Origin: Propylenella binzhouense
GTDB lineage: Bacteria > Pseudomonadota > Alphaproteobacteria > Rhizobiales > Afifellaceae
Length of the DNA: 35,609 nt
Direction: 5' to 3'
NCBI RefSeq assembly: GCF_009866965.1
Contig: NZ_SPKJ01000039.1
Span: 1 to 35,609 of the forward strand
The position numbers were made by a program, and so were the translations under genes. The notes under the pieces were generated by a model. It worked only from the letters and a program-made list of their open reading frames with translations, did not search any database and was not told the DNA's origin. How positions within the stretch are numbered: the first letter of the stretch is position 1; the number at the start of each line of letters is the position of its first letter. This document shows positions 8,369 to 15,157 of this stretch, one piece after another.

Positions 8369-8397
8369 ACTATAGTGGCGCCGTTTCGGCGGTTCAA
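8369..8397 (-). promoter_or_regulatory. Promoter of tRNA-Pro
   Basis: TTGAAC, a 17-base spacer and TATAGT lead to a start of transcription a few bases before the tRNA 5' end. The -35 box overlaps the stop codon of the Wzy-like gene (8394-8396), so the tRNA promoter sits inside the end of the polysaccharide operon. Confidence 0.6.
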
Positions 8398-9680
8398 GGG
8401 CGCACCGCGGCGATCAGCACTTCGCGATAGCCCGCGCCCGATGCCGGCTTCGGCGGCCTGACGAGATCCGCCGTCCGCCTCATGTTGAGCGCGCGCGTGC
8501 CCCAGATCAGGCCGAGCAGAAGGTAGATGTGGCGCCAGTGGTCGATGTCGATGACGGTCGCGACGAGGATGTGGCCGACGAAGACGACATAGGCGACCTG
8601 GACCACGCCCTGCATCGGCCCGGAGCGGAAGCAGAGGGGGAAGCCGACGAGAATCGTCGAAACGGTGAGCGCGAGAAAGGCGATGAAGCCGAGCCAGCCA
8701 TAGGTCGTGAGCGACTTCAGCCAGATGTCGTGCTCGTCCTCCCCCAACAGCTTGCCGAATTCGGCGTAGCCGAGGCCGAGCGGATGCTCGAGCATCAGGT
8801 TGAAGCCGATGATGTGGCGCTCGAAGCGTCCGAGGTGGCCGGCATCGTAGTCCTGGACGATCTGCGCCCGCTGGACATAAAGCTTCTGGACCGCCGGGAG
8901 GGACAGGACGCCGGCGAGCATGACGGCGAGCGCGATCAGTCCCGACACCGACAGCGCGATATATCTGGCGCGCACCGACGAGCGCCGCTCGTTGATGAAG
9001 AGGAAGAGCGCCATCGCGCCCGTCGACACCACCGTCAGTCCCCAGGCGGCGCGCGAGAAGGACAGGAAGATCCCGAACAGGATGACGAGGGCCAGTCCTC
9101 CGTTCTTCGGGAGCCGGCGGAGCGGCTCCGTCAGGATGCGCCGGACCAGGATCACGAACGGGAAGACCAGGAACGGACCGAAGACGTTCGGGTCCTTGAA
9201 GCCGCCCGCGGCGCGGTCGTAGAGCGTGAAGAGCCCGTTCGGCGTCAGCCCGAAATAGCCGATCATGCCGAGGAGCGAGGTGCCGATCGCCGCCGCGATA
9301 TAGGCCGAGATCACGATTCGGACGGCGTCGGGCCGCTGCGCGACGAGCGAGGCGTAGAAGAAGGCGGTGACCGCGAGGAAGGCCGTGACGGCAACGAAGA
9401 TCGGCTGGTTCGTCAGCCGGAAATCGTAGGACTGCGTCATGGCGAGCATGCCGCCCGCGACATAGAGGAGAAGCAGCCAGACGAGCGGACCGATGCTCTT
9501 CGGCAGCCGCAGGCCGCTCAGGAACCAGACCGGGATCGCGGCCGCGAAGATCAGCTCGTGCGGCGAGGGCTCGTAGAACACGAAGCCCCCCGAGAAGACG
9601 GCCAGCCAGAGCACGCCGTCCGAAAGCGCCTGGACGGGAAGGCCCGTCGGCCTGGCGACGGCGGACGCCGGGAGGCTCAA
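8394..9680 (-). CDS. O-antigen ligase/polymerase-like membrane protein (Wzy/WaaL family)
   Basis: This is a polytopic membrane protein of 428 residues with roughly ten to twelve hydrophobic segments and a large loop near residues 270-330. Its family polymerises or ligates undecaprenyl-linked sugar repeats at the periplasmic face. Visible family marks are the GGFKDPNVFGPFLVFPF segment, the LSFSRAAWG block, and NLMLEHPLGLGYAEF with the following HDIWLKSLTTYGWLGF. The start is probably TTG at 9680, overlapping the stop of the sugar transferase (TTGA), with GGAG eight bases upstream. It is the last gene of a three-gene operon behind the export lipoprotein and the WcaJ-type transferase. Polymerase and ligase cannot be told apart from sequence alone; context favours an exopolysaccharide polymerase. 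Confidence 0.85.
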   Translation of the reverse strand: MSLPASAVARPTGLPVQALSDGVLWLAVFSGGFVFYEPSPHELIFAAAIPVWFLSGLRLPKSIGPLVWLLLLYVAGGMLAMTQSYDFRLTNQPIFVAVTAFLAVTAFFYASLVAQRPDAVRIVISAYIAAAIGTSLLGMIGYFGLTPNGLFTLYDRAAGGFKDPNVFGPFLVFPFVILVRRILTEPLRRLPKNGGLALVILFGIFLSFSRAAWGLTVVSTGAMALFLFINERRSSVRARYIALSVSGLIALAVMLAGVLSLPAVQKLYVQRAQIVQDYDAGHLGRFERHIIGFNLMLEHPLGLGYAEFGKLLGEDEHDIWLKSLTTYGWLGFIAFLALTVSTILVGFPLCFRSGPMQGVVQVAYVVFVGHILVATVIDIDHWRHIYLLLGLIWGTRALNMRRTADLVRPPKPASGAGYREVLIAAVRP

Positions 9681-11203
9681 TAGGCGTTCTCCGCGGCGAT
9701 CAGCTTCAGCGGGGTGAGGAGCAGGATGTAGAGGTCGAGGAAGACCGACCAGTTCTCGATGTAATAGAGGTCGTGCTCGACGCGGTGGCGGATCTTCTCC
9801 TCGCTGTCGACCTCTCCGCGCCAGCCATGGACCTGAGCCCAGCCGGTCAGGCCCGGCTTCACGCGATGGCGCGCGAAGTAGCCGTCGACGACCTCCTTCC
9901 AGAGTTCGTTGTGCCCGACCGCGTGGGGGCGCGGGCCGACCAGCGAGAGATCGCCGCGAAGCACGTTGATGAGCTGCGGAAGCTCGTCGATCGAGAACTT
10001 CCTGATGATCCGTCCGACCCGGGTCACGCGCGGATCGCCTCGGGTGACCGCCTTGCGGGCCTCGAGGTCGGCGCGCTCGTGATACATCGAGCGCAGCTTC
10101 AGGACCTCGATGACCTCGTTGTTGAAGCCGTAGCGGCGCTGCCTGAAGAAGACGGGCCCCGAGGATTCGAGCTTCACGGCGGCCATCGCGGCGAGGAGAA
10201 GCGGCGACAGGGCGACCAGCGCGAGCGACGCGATCACGATGTCGAAGGTGCGCTTTACCACGGCGTCCCAATCGGCGATCGGGCGGTCGAACACGTCGAG
10301 GAACGGCACGGCCCCGATGAAGGAATAGGAGCGCGGACGGAAGCGGAGCTGGTTGGACTGGGCCGAGAGGCGGATATCGACCGGCAGCACCCAGAGGGTG
10401 CGCAGGAGCTCGACGAGGCGGCGCTCAGCGGTGAGCGGGAGCGCCACGATCAGGAGGTCGATGTCCGCCTGCCGGCCGAACTCGACGAGTTCGTCGATGC
10501 GGCCGAGGAGCGGATATCCAAGCCTGGCGGCCGGCACGCGCGTCTCGTCCCGGTCGTCGAAGATGCCGCAGATGCGGATGTCGTTGTCCTTCTCCGCCGT
10601 CAGCGCCCGCAGCAGCTCGACGCCCTCGGGCCCTCCGCCAACGAGGACCGCGCGCCGCTCGAGGATCCCGGCGCGGATCCAGCCGTGCACGAGCCGGGTG
10701 AAGCCGACCCGGTTTGCGGTCAGGATCAGGAACCCGCTCGCGAACCATGTCGCGAGCCAGATGCGGGAGAAGTCCTCGCCCATCTTGAGGAAGAACAGGA
10801 CGAGGGTGAAGCATCCGAACACGGCGGCCCACAGTCCGGCCGTGCGGCCGACCTGCACGACCGGGCGCCGGTAGGCCCCGAAGCTGTAGCCGCCGAACGA
10901 GCCGACCAGGATCACGGTGGCGAGCGGCACCAGCGCGAGCGCCGCGAAGTAGCGCAGGCCGACATCGTCCGTCCCGGCGACATAGAGCCAGAGAATGGCG
11001 GCCCCGAGCGCTGCGAGGGAGCCGAAATCGGCGAGCCGGGCGAGGGCGCCGAGGAGGACGGGAGAGACCTTGCGCGGGCTGAGCGCGCGCGCCGCATTGA
11101 TTGCGGCCGCGCTCAGCGTGTCGACGCCGCCGGCCGGCGGTTTCGGGGCGAGGGCTGCGCCGCTGGAGGCGACTGCGGTCGGGTCGATCGTGATGTCGGA
11201 CAT
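9677..11203 (-). CDS. Undecaprenyl-phosphate sugar phosphotransferase (WcaJ/ExoY-type)
   Basis: This 508-residue enzyme would transfer a hexose-1-phosphate from a UDP-sugar to undecaprenyl phosphate, starting polysaccharide assembly at the inner membrane. The order is four to five N-terminal membrane segments, a Rossmann-like CoA-binding-type domain (AVLVGGGPEGVELLRAL), a further membrane helix beginning KRTFDIVIASLALVAL, and the bacterial sugar transferase domain. That domain shows FRQRRYGFNNEVIEVLKLRSM, RKFSIDELPQLINVLRGDLSLVGPRP and VKPGLTGWAQV. The ATG at 11203 gives MSDITIDPTA; no strong ribosome binding site is visible, so a slightly different start is possible. The sugar (glucose, galactose or other) cannot be read. 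It follows the export lipoprotein gene after a 97-base gap with an A+T-rich island. Confidence 0.92.
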   Translation of the reverse strand: MSDITIDPTAVASSGAALAPKPPAGGVDTLSAAAINAARALSPRKVSPVLLGALARLADFGSLAALGAAILWLYVAGTDDVGLRYFAALALVPLATVILVGSFGGYSFGAYRRPVVQVGRTAGLWAAVFGCFTLVLFFLKMGEDFSRIWLATWFASGFLILTANRVGFTRLVHGWIRAGILERRAVLVGGGPEGVELLRALTAEKDNDIRICGIFDDRDETRVPAARLGYPLLGRIDELVEFGRQADIDLLIVALPLTAERRLVELLRTLWVLPVDIRLSAQSNQLRFRPRSYSFIGAVPFLDVFDRPIADWDAVVKRTFDIVIASLALVALSPLLLAAMAAVKLESSGPVFFRQRRYGFNNEVIEVLKLRSMYHERADLEARKAVTRGDPRVTRVGRIIRKFSIDELPQLINVLRGDLSLVGPRPHAVGHNELWKEVVDGYFARHRVKPGLTGWAQVHGWRGEVDSEEKIRHRVEHDLYYIENWSVFLDLYILLLTPLKLIAAENAY

Positions 11204-11251
11204 GGCTGGCCAGAGGAGGGACGATCCGGCCGCCCATACGCCCAAACCCGT

Positions 11252-11275
11252 CAAAAAAAGCAAAATATTGACTGA
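11252..11275. other. A+T-rich island between export lipoprotein and sugar transferase genes
   Basis: A run read on the minus strand as TATTTTGCTTTTTTTGAC is strikingly A+T-rich for this genome. It lies in the 97-base gap inside the operon. Only weak stems flank it, so it is not a clear terminator; it could be an attenuation site, a promoter element or a site for an A+T-binding regulator. Confidence 0.35.
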
Positions 11276-11300
11276 GTTAGGGTTACTCGCCGCTTGTCCT

Positions 11301-11882
11301 TCAGAACAGCCGTTCCGAGACGTAGATCGTATCGCCGGGCCGGATCGGCTGCACGACGGCGATGCGACCCTCGTAGAGCTTGCCATCAACGGTCCGGCTG
11401 ATGCGGACCGTCCGCTCGTTCGCACGCGCGGTGAAGCCGCCGGCGGCGGCGATTGCGGTCTCGGCCGTCATGCCGGGGACGTACTCGTACTGGCCGGGCG
11501 CGCCGACCTCGCCGAGGACGAAGAAGGGCCGATAGTTGGCGACCTCGATCGTGACGTCCGGCTTCCTGAGGACCGTCGAGCCGAGGCGCTGTGCGATGCG
11601 GGCCTGCAGTTCGTCGGTGGTCGCGTTCCGGGCCGCCACGTCGCCGATCAGGGGAAGCGCGACGTTGCCGGCCTGGTCGACCCGGTACGTGTTCGTCAAG
11701 GAAGGCTGATCGAACACGACGACCCGCAGCACGTCCCCGCTGTCGAGCCGGTACGGGCCCTCGACGGTGGCGGACGCGGAGGCAAGCGGCGGACGTTCGC
11801 CGGCGCACCCGCCGAGACCGGCAAGGACCGCGCAGAGCAGCAGCGTCCGAAGAAGAGGTGGCCAATTAACGAGGATTCGCAT
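11301..11882 (-). CDS. Polysaccharide export lipoprotein (Wza family)
   Basis: This 193-residue outer-membrane lipoprotein is of the polysaccharide biosynthesis/export family, which forms the channel for secreted chains. The signal peptide ends in the lipobox AGLGGC (C26). The export domain follows: GPYRLDSGDVLRVVVFDQPSLTNTYRVDQAGNVALPLIGDV, and then a SLBB-type domain around FFVLGEVGAPGQYEYVPGMTAETAIAAAGGFT. It is much shorter than E. coli Wza (about 380 residues), lacking the C-terminal part that spans the outer membrane there. Short forms are common in alphaproteobacteria. The ATG at 11882 is chosen; a TTG three codons upstream is possible. It is the first gene of the minus-strand polysaccharide operon. 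Confidence 0.9.
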   Translation of the reverse strand: MRILVNWPPLLRTLLLCAVLAGLGGCAGERPPLASASATVEGPYRLDSGDVLRVVVFDQPSLTNTYRVDQAGNVALPLIGDVAARNATTDELQARIAQRLGSTVLRKPDVTIEVANYRPFFVLGEVGAPGQYEYVPGMTAETAIAAAGGFTARANERTVRISRTVDGKLYEGRIAVVQPIRPGDTIYVSERLF

Positions 11883-11906
11883 CGGGGCCAACTTGGCTGT
11901 GCATGG

Positions 11907-11922
11907 TTAACGCATCCCTAAG
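11907..11922. promoter_or_regulatory. CtrA-like site 1 (TTAA-N7-CTAA)
   Basis: TTAACGCATCCCTAAG matches the alphaproteobacterial CtrA consensus TTAA-N7-TTAA with one changed base. It lies in the 126-base region between the divergent export lipoprotein and chain-length genes. Confidence 0.45.
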
Positions 11923-11948
11923 ACGCGCCTTCGGCAGAGTAGGCGCCG

Positions 11949-11964
11949 TTAACTTCAACCTAAC
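11949..11964. promoter_or_regulatory. CtrA-like site 2 (TTAA-N7-CTAAC)
   Basis: TTAACTTCAACCTAAC matches TTAA-N7-TTAAC with one changed base, the same base as in site 1. The two sites are in the same orientation and start exactly 42 bp apart, four turns of B-DNA, so they face the same side. Confidence 0.5.
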
Positions 11965-12008
11965 CACGATGGAACAGGTTGGGGACCTCGGTTGGGAGTG
12001 GTATCGAC

Positions 12009-14075
12009 ATGGGTGATGTCCGGGAGACGGAACTCGACCTCGGCGCGTTGGCCGCCGCCCTGTGGCGGCATGCATGGATCCTGGGCCTGGTCACCGTGGT
12101 GGCCGCGATCCTCGCCTATGTCCTCCTCAGCGCTGTCGAGCCTCTCTACACCGCCGATACGCGCATCCTGATCGAGGACCGCGAATCGCCGCTCACCCGT
12201 CCGCGCGACGCGGCGGCCGTCACGGCCGAACGCTACGACGAATCGGCCATCCAGAGCAGGGTGGAAGTACTGCGTTCGCGCGACATCGCAACCACGGTCA
12301 TCGACCGGCTCGACCTCACGCACCGGCCGGAATTCGAGCCGGCCGCCAAGCCGTCGCTGGTCGATTCGATCCTCATCGCGGTCGGCATGAAGAGGCCGGC
12401 CCCCGCCGCCGCCACGCGCGAGCGCGTGATGGACACCTATTTCGCCCGGCTTTCGGTCTATCCGATCGACAAGTCGCGCGTGATCGGCGTCGATTTCGAG
12501 GCGCCGAACGCCCAGCTCGCCGCCGACGTCGCCAACGCCATCGCGGAGGCCTTCGTCGACCTCCAGCAGAAGGCGGAGCAGGAATCGTCGATGGCCGCGA
12601 CCGCGTGGCTGGAGCGGGAGATCGACCGGCTTCGCGGCCGGGTCGAGCAGGCGGAGGCGGACGTTGCCGCGTACCAGTCGAGCGAGGGCCTGTTCGACAC
12701 CTCGTCGAACGCGGCGGGGACGACGAGCCTTTCCAGCCAGCAGCTCACCGACCTCAACGCCGAGCTCTCGCGCGCGAAGGCGGCGAGGGCGGAGGCGCAG
12801 TCGCGCGCCGCCCTGGTCAGGGAGGTGCTCGCCAATGGCGGCTCGCTCGAGACGTCGCAGGAAGTTCTGAATTCGCCGCTGATGCAGCGTCTTCGCGAGC
12901 GGCAGGTGGCGCTTCGCTCCGAGATCGCTCAGCTCTCGACCAGCCTTCTGCCGGGGCATCCGCGCATCGCCGCGCTCCAGACCGAGCTCGGCAACCTCAA
13001 CCGGCAGGTCCGCGACGAGGCCCAGAAGATCCTCCAGTCGCTCGAGACCGCCGCGCGCGTGGCGCAGGCGCGCGAGGACTCGCTCGTGAAGGATCTCAAC
13101 ACCGCGAAGGCGGCGGTCGCGAGCAGCAACGAGAAGGAGATCAGGCTGCGCGCGCTCGAGCGCGAGGCGCGGGCCCAGCGCGATCTGCTGGAGACGTTCC
13201 TCGGCCGGTACCGCGAGGCGGTGGCCCGGAGCGATGCGGAATACGTGCCCGTCGATGCCCGGATCATCTCGCGCGCGGTTCCGCCGCGCAAGCCGTCCTG
13301 GCCGAAGAAGGGCCTCCTGACGGTGGTGGTCGGGCTCGCGGTCCTTCTCCTCGGCGCGACGGCGATCCTCGTCCGCGAATTCACCTCCGGGCGCGCCTTC
13401 AGGATCATCGCAGGGGAGCCGCTCGCCATCCCGGACGCCTTGGGCGAACCCGCGAGGCCGGCCGAGCCGCCATCGGTGTTCGGCTCGGCCGCACGGCTTG
13501 CCGCGCGGGAGCGGCCGGGGACGGCCGAACTCGCCGAGGTGCTCGTCCAGCCGGGCGTCCGCACGGTGCTCTTCGCGGGGCTGGCGGGCGGGGAAGGCGC
13601 CGGCGAGATCGCGGTCGCGGCCGCGCGGCTGGCGGCGCGGGAGAACGTCCGCCCGATCATTCTCGACATCGGCGTTCCGGGATCGCCGGCCCTGCGCGGC
13701 GAGGGACCGGGCCTCGGCGAGCTGCTCGCCGGCAATGCCGCCTTCGGCGAGGTGATCCGGCGCGACGACACCTCGCGCGTCCACTACATCGCGATCGGGG
13801 CGACCGACGAGGATCCGCCGCTCCAGCGGCTGACCCTCGTCGTGGCGGCGCTCGCCCACACCTACGACAAGGTGATCGTGGTGGCCGACTCGCTCGAGGA
13901 CTGGCCGAACGAGCACGTCAGGCCCGATCTCGCCGCGGTGCTCTGCCGGGCCGGCGTCTCCGAAGCCGAGCGCCGGCGCGCCTATCAGGACGTCCTCGAA
14001 CGCGGCGCGCGAAGCGCCATCCTCGTGCGCCTCGAGGACGGCGTGGAGGCCGAACCGGAGACCGTCGCCGCATGA
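12009..14075 (+). CDS. Wzc/GumC-type polysaccharide co-polymerase with degenerate kinase domain
   Basis: This 688-residue inner-membrane protein has the layout of ExoP/Wzc/GumC chain-length regulators. It comprises membrane helix 1 (about 23-43), a Wzz-type periplasmic domain, long coiled coils (about 190-410), the proline-rich RAVPPRKPSWPKKG motif, membrane helix 2 (about 434-456) and a C-terminal MinD-like domain. In that last domain the Walker A loop reads FAGLAGGEGAGEIAVAA, without the essential lysine. The A' segment (PIILDIGVPG) keeps only its aspartate, Walker B reads VIVVADSLED, and there is no C-terminal tyrosine cluster. It is therefore unlikely to be an active tyrosine kinase. GGGAGTGG precedes the ATG at 12009. 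The stop overlaps the deacetylase start (ATGA). Confidence 0.9.
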   Translation: MGDVRETELDLGALAAALWRHAWILGLVTVVAAILAYVLLSAVEPLYTADTRILIEDRESPLTRPRDAAAVTAERYDESAIQSRVEVLRSRDIATTVIDRLDLTHRPEFEPAAKPSLVDSILIAVGMKRPAPAAATRERVMDTYFARLSVYPIDKSRVIGVDFEAPNAQLAADVANAIAEAFVDLQQKAEQESSMAATAWLEREIDRLRGRVEQAEADVAAYQSSEGLFDTSSNAAGTTSLSSQQLTDLNAELSRAKAARAEAQSRAALVREVLANGGSLETSQEVLNSPLMQRLRERQVALRSEIAQLSTSLLPGHPRIAALQTELGNLNRQVRDEAQKILQSLETAARVAQAREDSLVKDLNTAKAAVASSNEKEIRLRALEREARAQRDLLETFLGRYREAVARSDAEYVPVDARIISRAVPPRKPSWPKKGLLTVVVGLAVLLLGATAILVREFTSGRAFRIIAGEPLAIPDALGEPARPAEPPSVFGSAARLAARERPGTAELAEVLVQPGVRTVLFAGLAGGEGAGEIAVAAARLAARENVRPIILDIGVPGSPALRGEGPGLGELLAGNAAFGEVIRRDDTSRVHYIAIGATDEDPPLQRLTLVVAALAHTYDKVIVVADSLEDWPNEHVRPDLAAVLCRAGVSEAERRRAYQDVLERGARSAILVRLEDGVEAEPETVAA

Positions 14076-15157
14076 CGAAGGAGATGAAGGCGCCGAGCGC
14101 GTTCGCCAGGCCCGCCGCGCGGCGGCTGGGGGCGCGGGACAGGCTGGTGGGCCAGGGCCTGCGGGCGCTCGCGCTCCTGCATGCCGACCGCTGGCTGGAG
14201 AGCCGGGACGGCACGAGCGTGGCGGTGACGCTGCATCACGTGCGTCCCGACGATCCGCGCCCGTTCGATCCGAACGCGCACCTCTCGATCACGCCGGAAT
14301 TCCTCGATTCCTTCATCGCTTCCATGAAAGGGAACGGCTGGAAGTTCGTCACGGTCGATGGCCTCTTCGAGGCGGCTCCCGAAACGGCCGACCGCCGGAT
14401 CGCCGTCACGCTCGACGACGGCTACCGGGACAATCTCGAATACGCCCTGCCGGTCTTCCGGCGGCATGGCTGCCCGTTCACGATCTTCGTGACCCCCGGT
14501 TATTGCGATCGGACCGCCGAACTGTGGTGGGAGGCGCTCGACCGGATCATAGCGGGGGCAGACGTTCTGGAGGCCGTCCCCGGCGGCCCGCCGAAGCTGC
14601 CGCTCAGGACCGTAGCCGAGAAGGAGGCGGCCTTCCGCGTCTGGTCCGGCTATCTCACCACGGAGCTGGACGAATTCGCGCAGCGCGCGGCAATCCGTCG
14701 CGTCGCGGACGATCACGGCCTCGACCTTGCCGCGCTTGCGGCCGAGCTCGTGATGGATTTCGACGAGGTGAGGGCGATCGCGGCCGATCCGCTTTGCCGC
14801 ATCGGCGCCCATACCATGACGCATCCCGCGCTGAAGCGCCTGCCCGAAGAAGTCGCGCGGCGCGAGATGCGGGAGAGCGCGGATCGGATCGAGGCGGAGA
14901 TCGGGTATCGACCCACGGCCTTCGCGTTTCCGTACGGCTATTCGGCGGCGGCCGGCCCGCGCGAGGCGCAGCTTGCCGAGCAGGAGGGCTTCGTCGCCTC
15001 CTTCACGACACGGCCCGGCTGCATCGAGCGGGACGGACGGCGTCACGGCCTGCCGCGCATCTCGCTCAACGGCAAATATCAGGACCCGCGCCTCTATCCC
15101 GCCCTGTTCGTGCCGAACGTCTGGCGCCTCGCGCGCTGGCTGCGCTCGCCCGGCTAG
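14072..15157 (+). CDS. Polysaccharide deacetylase (NodB homology, CE4)
   Basis: This 361-residue protein has a NodB-type carbohydrate esterase 4 domain. Such enzymes remove N- or O-acetyl groups from polysaccharides with a bound metal. Motif 1 is ITLDDGYRDN-like (here VTLDDGYRDN), supplying the catalytic and metal aspartates, and motif 2 is HTMTHP, giving the two metal-binding histidines. RPTAFAFPYGYS matches the downstream motif. A CPFTIFVTPGYCD strand lies between them. There is no signal peptide or membrane segment, so it may act in the cytoplasm on lipid-linked sugar, or be exported another way. It is coupled to the co-polymerase gene by an ATGA overlap. Its stop shares the tetranucleotide CTAG with the convergent DUF2842-like gene. 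Confidence 0.9.
   Translation: MTKEMKAPSAFARPAARRLGARDRLVGQGLRALALLHADRWLESRDGTSVAVTLHHVRPDDPRPFDPNAHLSITPEFLDSFIASMKGNGWKFVTVDGLFEAAPETADRRIAVTLDDGYRDNLEYALPVFRRHGCPFTIFVTPGYCDRTAELWWEALDRIIAGADVLEAVPGGPPKLPLRTVAEKEAAFRVWSGYLTTELDEFAQRAAIRRVADDHGLDLAALAAELVMDFDEVRAIAADPLCRIGAHTMTHPALKRLPEEVARREMRESADRIEAEIGYRPTAFAFPYGYSAAAGPREAQLAEQEGFVASFTTRPGCIERDGRRHGLPRISLNGKYQDPRLYPALFVPNVWRLARWLRSPG

Follow-up and report, generated by a model that had tools for sequence, protein, structure and literature searches.

The window analyzed here, a stretch of 35,609 nucleotides from Propylenella binzhouense, contains a cluster of polysaccharide genes that lie on either side of a 126-bp intergenic gap. The gap separates the ATG of a wza-type export lipoprotein gene (position 11882, minus strand) from the ATG of a wzc-type co-polymerase gene (position 12009, plus strand), and its G+C content is 58% compared with 69% for the window (Table 1). 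The listed ORF for the Wzy_C protein overlaps the one for the phosphotransferase and has its true start further in, with the Sinorhizobium meliloti homolog aligning at positions 8475–9662. When compared with NCBIfam, the phosphotransferase scored above the cut-off of the WcaJ model and weakly against the HfsE model (312 bits, cut-off 750). The cluster is of the Wzy type, as it contains wza and wzc along with a gene for an initiating hexose-phosphate transferase.

Six of the 12 proteins encoded in the corresponding S. meliloti neighborhood (O-antigen ligase, transferase, wza, wzc, DUF2842, and COX15) have matches in the window, with order and orientation kept, and the other six are without a match there. 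The window cluster is partly syntenic with this S. meliloti polysaccharide cluster, and its product is perhaps a unipolar adhesin. The uppABCDEF cluster of Agrobacterium tumefaciens is likewise of the Wzy type, and its initiating transferase, UppE, is described as homologous to HfsE (excerpts of PMC4018554); the window cluster is likened to upp by gene content.

Table 1. Genes and predicted regulatory features around the wza-wzc intergenic gap
Feature	Position	Strand	Basis
Wzy_C (O-antigen ligase/polymerase-like) protein, listed ORF	8394..10271	-	Pfam
Undecaprenyl-phosphate glucose phosphotransferase, listed ORF, start uncertain	9677..11425	-	Pfam; TIGR03023 461.9 bits, cut-off 410.75
wza-type polysaccharide export lipoprotein (Poly_export, SLBB)	11301..11882	-	Pfam
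Predicted -10 of wza promoter, CAAGTT	11890..11895	-	Letters and 73-pair alignment; 26 nt from box start
Box 1, CtrA-type, toward wza	11903..11921	-	TTAGGGATGCGTTAACCAT, 11/12 fixed positions
Box 2, CtrA-type, toward wzc	11949..11967	+	TTAACTTCAACCTAACCAC, 10/12 fixed positions
Predicted -10 of wzc promoter, CAGGTT	11975..11980	+	Letters and 73-pair alignment; 26 nt from box start
wzc/GumC-type polysaccharide co-polymerase (Wzz)	12009..14075	+	Pfam; GNVR slightly under cut-off; TIGR01005 below cut-off
Polysaccharide deacetylase, 3' of wzc	14072..15157	+	Pfam

On the plus strand of the gap, TTAACGCATCCCTAAG occupies positions 11907–11922 and TTAACTTCAACCTAAC positions 11949–11964, 42 bp from start to start. 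The first-pass annotation had described these as paired CtrA-like sites, and its letters, coordinates, spacing, and gap length were all reproduced. It had also called TTAA rare in this G+C-rich window, and the counts agree: TTAA is present three times compared with ∼20 expected from base composition. Two of these copies are the intergenic sites and the third, at 11866, falls within the start of wza. The pattern TTAA-N7-YTAAS has two matches in the window compared with an expectation of 0.03, and two matches were obtained in none of 100 shuffles.

The two sites had been taken to share one orientation, which is correct for the plus-strand letters but not once the palindrome GTTAAC is read on the minus strand. 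Because of this palindrome, site 1 can be read there as TTAG-N7-TTAACCATG, so the two sites point apart. Read outward, TTAG-N7-TTAACCAT on the minus strand faces wza and TTAA-N7-CTAACCA on the plus strand faces wzc. In this reading, site 1 agrees with TTAA-N7-TTAACCAT at 11 of its 12 fixed positions, and the N7 spacing of the half-sites is exact in both boxes, with one mismatch in box 1 and two in box 2; the CtrA site is known as TTAA-N7-TTAA(C), a repeat of half-sites at 11 bp. The impression that both sites differ from the motif at the same base was an artefact of reading one strand, since in the outward reading the deviation falls in the left half of site 1 but in the right half of site 2. 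A scan of the whole genome gave 10 places with no more than one mismatch, site 1 among them, and 33 places with two, site 2 among them; the genome-wide rank that the first-pass annotation had suggested checking is thus good, but neither site is unique.

The genome (4.70 Mb in 229 contigs) encodes a CtrA ortholog that is 83% identical to a Caulobacter CtrA query and almost identical to it in the C-terminal DNA-binding part; the next best regulator is 38% identical. This ortholog scores 423.7 bits against the NCBIfam equivalog model NF045991 (cut-off 350). In all, the query has 34 matches in the genome, which holds many related regulators. The motif TTAACCAT is found 80 bp upstream of ctrA, on the ctrA strand, and also near the Flp-pilus gene cpaB. 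Matches to TTAA-N7-TTAAC or TTAG-N7-TTAAC are located between eipA and an HPTransfase gene, which we take to be of the ChpT type, in another gap on the side of a DUF1465 gene that is presumably of the RcdA type, upstream of the MinC domains encoded by a long ORF, and ahead of a gene for pilus formation. CtrA motifs have been published for minC, chpT, and rcdA of S. meliloti (excerpts of PMC3616915). Other matches, such as those at kinase/pyrophosphorylase and aminopeptidase genes and at the alcohol dehydrogenase gene on the opposite side of the DUF1465 gap, are without a known tie to CtrA.

Across the genome as a whole, the motif is only modestly enriched. TTAG-N7-TTAAC is present five times compared with four for the reversed control, TTAA-N7-TTAAC has 10 placements (7 distinct) compared with two for the reversed pattern, TTAACCAT is present 18 times compared with 13, and the full box with at most two mismatches is present 43 times compared with 19. 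The sole perfect copy of TTAA-N7-TTAACCAT in the genome lies at positions 39118–39136 of contig C150, on the minus strand, and on one side it adjoins an outer-membrane beta-barrel gene (OMP_b-brl).

Conservation was analyzed at 107 wza loci, a chosen subset: from 147 genomes with a match, those for which the searches gave loci and about one per further genus, and in addition 20 weaker matches. At 87 of these loci, which represent 36 families and 70 genera, wza and wzc are divergent. The 20 wza loci that were left out (19 in which the stretch lacks a wzc match and one in which it is too far away) have a box of at least 9/12 toward wza in 14 cases, and it is absent in 6. Some named wzc relatives (L056–L059) were also left out, as a wza match was absent from the stretches searched. 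From the named relatives, we infer that the order of the compared genomes is Hyphomicrobiales.

Both best boxes reached at least 9/12 in 78 of the 87 divergent loci, compared with 2.7% of 1740 regions resampled from the gaps by a first-order Markov model, which is not an exact dinucleotide shuffle. When at least 10/12 was required, these values were 47 of 87 and 0.34%. Non-overlapping pairs at a threshold of 9/12 point outward at 73 of 87 loci and inward at 7, and at a threshold of 10/12 these numbers are 46 and 0; the direct-repeat orientation of the earlier description is not supported by these counts. Outward pairs at the threshold of 9 were found in 25 of the 36 families and 57 of the 70 genera, and 11 families are without one. 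As the divergent loci are kin by descent, these counts are not independent. CcrM sites (GANTC) are not enriched in the 87 gaps (82 compared with a shuffle mean of 89.9).

Within the family, a wza match is present in all 11 genomes compared. An outward pair at a divergent locus was seen in 10 of them, this genome included, whereas in the eleventh (G003) there is a 46% wza match only, with no adjoining wzc and no good box. Among named genomes, the S. meliloti sequence CP090106.1 has divergent wza and wzc genes with both boxes at 10/12. Upstream of wzc, both boxes are 10/12 in Shinella, and they are 10 and 9 of 12 in Methylobacterium aquaticum (in both cases the wzc side alone was examined). CP090106.1 is a 3.7-Mb sequence labeled as S. 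meliloti plasmid pSymB that carries argC and COX15/CtaA, and its size and content suggest that it may be the chromosome, wrongly labeled. In six genomes of the same class from beyond the order, wzc was divergent in every case and the boxes were weaker, with scores toward wza and away from it of 9 and 9 of 12 in three (L190–L192), 9 and 8 in L186, 7 and 9 in L184, and 7 and 8 in L185. In four of these six, weak outward boxes (8–9 of 12) flank the gap on either side, and the layout may therefore be older than the order.

Because ctrA is present and both sites are conserved in relatives, neither of the findings that the first-pass annotation had named as fatal to its proposal, a genome lacking ctrA or a lack of conservation in close relatives, was made. 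Its identification of the sites as CtrA-type is supported by these same two observations, and the conservation that it suggested looking for upstream of wza and wzc is seen as outward pairs at 73 of 87 loci. The two boxes could instead be chance AT-rich matches, an explanation that the lower G+C content of the gap would favor. This is contradicted by the window expectation of 0.03 and the shuffles, by the retention of an outward pair in 10 of 11 family genomes, and by the 2.7% of resampled gap regions that yield a pair, and we regard its probability as negligible.

For the analysis of geometry, we used the 73 of the 87 loci in which both best boxes were at least 9/12, faced outward, and were at least 20 bp apart; these 73 aligned pairs and the 73 outward-pair loci above are sets picked by different rules. 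Box spacing, measured between the left edges of the two 19-mers, is 41–54 bp in the family and 23–185 bp over the 73 pairs, and it has no significant helical phase over these pairs (Rayleigh R 0.18, p ∼0.09). The first-pass annotation had placed the two sites four turns apart, on the same face of the helix, an arrangement that would suit cooperative binding of CtrA and that agrees with the 42 bp between the plus-strand copies in this genome. The comparative spacing data contradict helical phasing, and the boxes face outward across the divergent loci, which leaves this geometry scarcely credible. With spacing this variable, the four helical turns are accidental, and given outward boxes with free spacing, no meaning attaches to them or to the direct repeat.

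When the 73 pairs were aligned on their boxes, an A at +27 and a T at +31 emerged on both sides, at positions that had not been used for choosing the boxes. A -10-like element (NANNNT) is present at offset 26 from the box start in 28 of 73 cases for box 1 and 31 of 70 for box 2, compared with a shuffle maximum of 15; a lesser peak occurs at offset 27 (10 of 73 and 19 of 70, respectively). In the window, as across the alignment of the 73 pairs, a box over the -35 region is combined with a -10-like element at this fixed distance. The offset-26 geometry is the published layout of CtrA-activated promoters (excerpts of PMC6180460). Elsewhere among the CtrA-like sites of the genome, this element is not clearly shared, being present at offset 26 at 5 of 26 distinct sites, site 1 included (loci were available for 30 of the 43 places).

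The implied transcription start is at about +38/+39, 23–24 nt past the end of the box. In Rhodobacter sphaeroides, 5'-RACE placed the starts of CtrA-activated promoters at 23–24 nt past the site, a distance described as agreeing with Caulobacter (excerpts of PMC6180460). By this measure, wza transcription is predicted to start at about 11882–11883 and wzc transcription at about 11987–11988. Because the predicted wza start falls on the ATG (region 11880–11883), wza may be transcribed as a leaderless mRNA. At the predicted start of wzc there is no purine, which is a mild point against the model. A σ70 consensus promoter is absent at 11850–12050, as is expected if an activator is needed.

Occupancy of both boxes by CtrA might mainly repress transcription, with the genes turned on when CtrA is cleared. 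This possibility gains from the closeness of the predicted wza start behind box 1 and from Agrobacterium dgcB and Atu3318, whose expression rose when the TTAA of predicted CtrA sites was altered to AATT (excerpts of PMC7003649). The boxes, however, cover the -35 region and are followed by the -10 at a constant offset of 26 nt, and activating CtrA sites are reported near -35, whereas repressing half-sites overlap the -10 (excerpts of PMC6180460). We therefore consider repression unlikely and activation the preferred reading.

The boxes are imperfect in a conserved manner. In box 2, the first base of the right half is off consensus here and in 69 of the 73 pairs, being G or C in 65 and T in 4. 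In box 1, this base is T in 72 of 73 pairs and the left half is degenerate. These off-consensus bases may set the affinity for CtrA. The same conserved but non-consensus right half, together with the many related regulators in the genome, could point to a different OmpR-type response regulator that reads direct half-sites 11 bp apart. Against this, box 1 carries TTAACCAT, a reported variant of the CtrA motif (excerpts of PMC6180460), and the box motif is also present before ctrA and near typical CtrA targets, making a regulator other than CtrA very improbable.

Based on the above results, we propose, with a probability of roughly 0.8, that the 126-bp gap holds two independent, divergent, outward-facing promoters of the polysaccharide cluster that are activated by CtrA. 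Toward wza and the genes that follow it, phosphorylated CtrA (CtrA∼P) would occupy the -35 region by binding TTAG-N7-TTAACCAT (11921–11903, minus strand); toward wzc and the deacetylase gene, it would do so by binding TTAA-N7-CTAACCA (11949–11967, plus strand). The extent of each operon is presumed. Bound CtrA would then aid RNA polymerase at the weak -10 elements CAAGTT and CAGGTT, 26 nt from the box starts. At high CtrA∼P, the export, initiating-transferase, and polymerase genes would be activated together with the co-polymerase gene on the opposite side, which would place these polysaccharide genes under cell-cycle control. Weighing against the proposal are the off-consensus right half of box 2, the 11 families that have no pair at the threshold of 9, the modest motif enrichment, the -10 element not clearly shared by further CtrA-like sites, and the predicted starts themselves, with no purine at wzc and no leader at wza.

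The promoter layout has a precedent in flgB2p-fliI2p of R. sphaeroides, where a short gap likewise contains two CtrA sites that act independently, one activating each divergent promoter, with a start 23–24 nt beyond the site, as predicted here. There, as described in excerpts of PMC6180460, the genes are flagellar, the half-site spacing is altered, and the proof is experimental, whereas here the genes are for polysaccharide, N7 is kept, and the promoters are predicted from sequence. The holdfast gene hfsJ of Caulobacter crescentus is directly activated by CtrA through a comparable site with an imperfect left half and a TTAACCA right half, but in the available sections of PMC3900383 it is a single glycosyltransferase gene, with neither a wza/wzc export pair nor a divergent promoter pair. 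In Agrobacterium, putative CtrA sites are reported before succinoglycan genes, and the influence that the cell-cycle phosphorelay has on attachment is traced mainly to dgcB and c-di-GMP (excerpts of PMC7003649). The CtrA link described there runs via dgcB, unlike the promoter pair proposed here. Our searches of an open-access library turned up no mention of CtrA sites in the interval from wza to wzc, and published ChIP-seq tables may contain one. We regard the wza-wzc gap as a putative new target of CtrA, a regulator already known, with a promoter layout that has been described before.

A broader proposal, which we offer tentatively and judge somewhat short of an even chance, is that across the order a single ancient promoter, built back to back, lets CtrA directly and jointly activate the two arms of a pole-adhesin machine, and that the conserved off-consensus bases have been selected for low affinity, so that expression coincides with the peak of CtrA∼P. 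If true, a conserved CtrA promoter pair serving the export and co-polymerase genes would connect the cell cycle directly, at the level of transcription, with surface polysaccharide in a wide bacterial group, and the conserved imperfection of the boxes would allow the dependence of timing on CtrA affinity to be studied in a natural setting.
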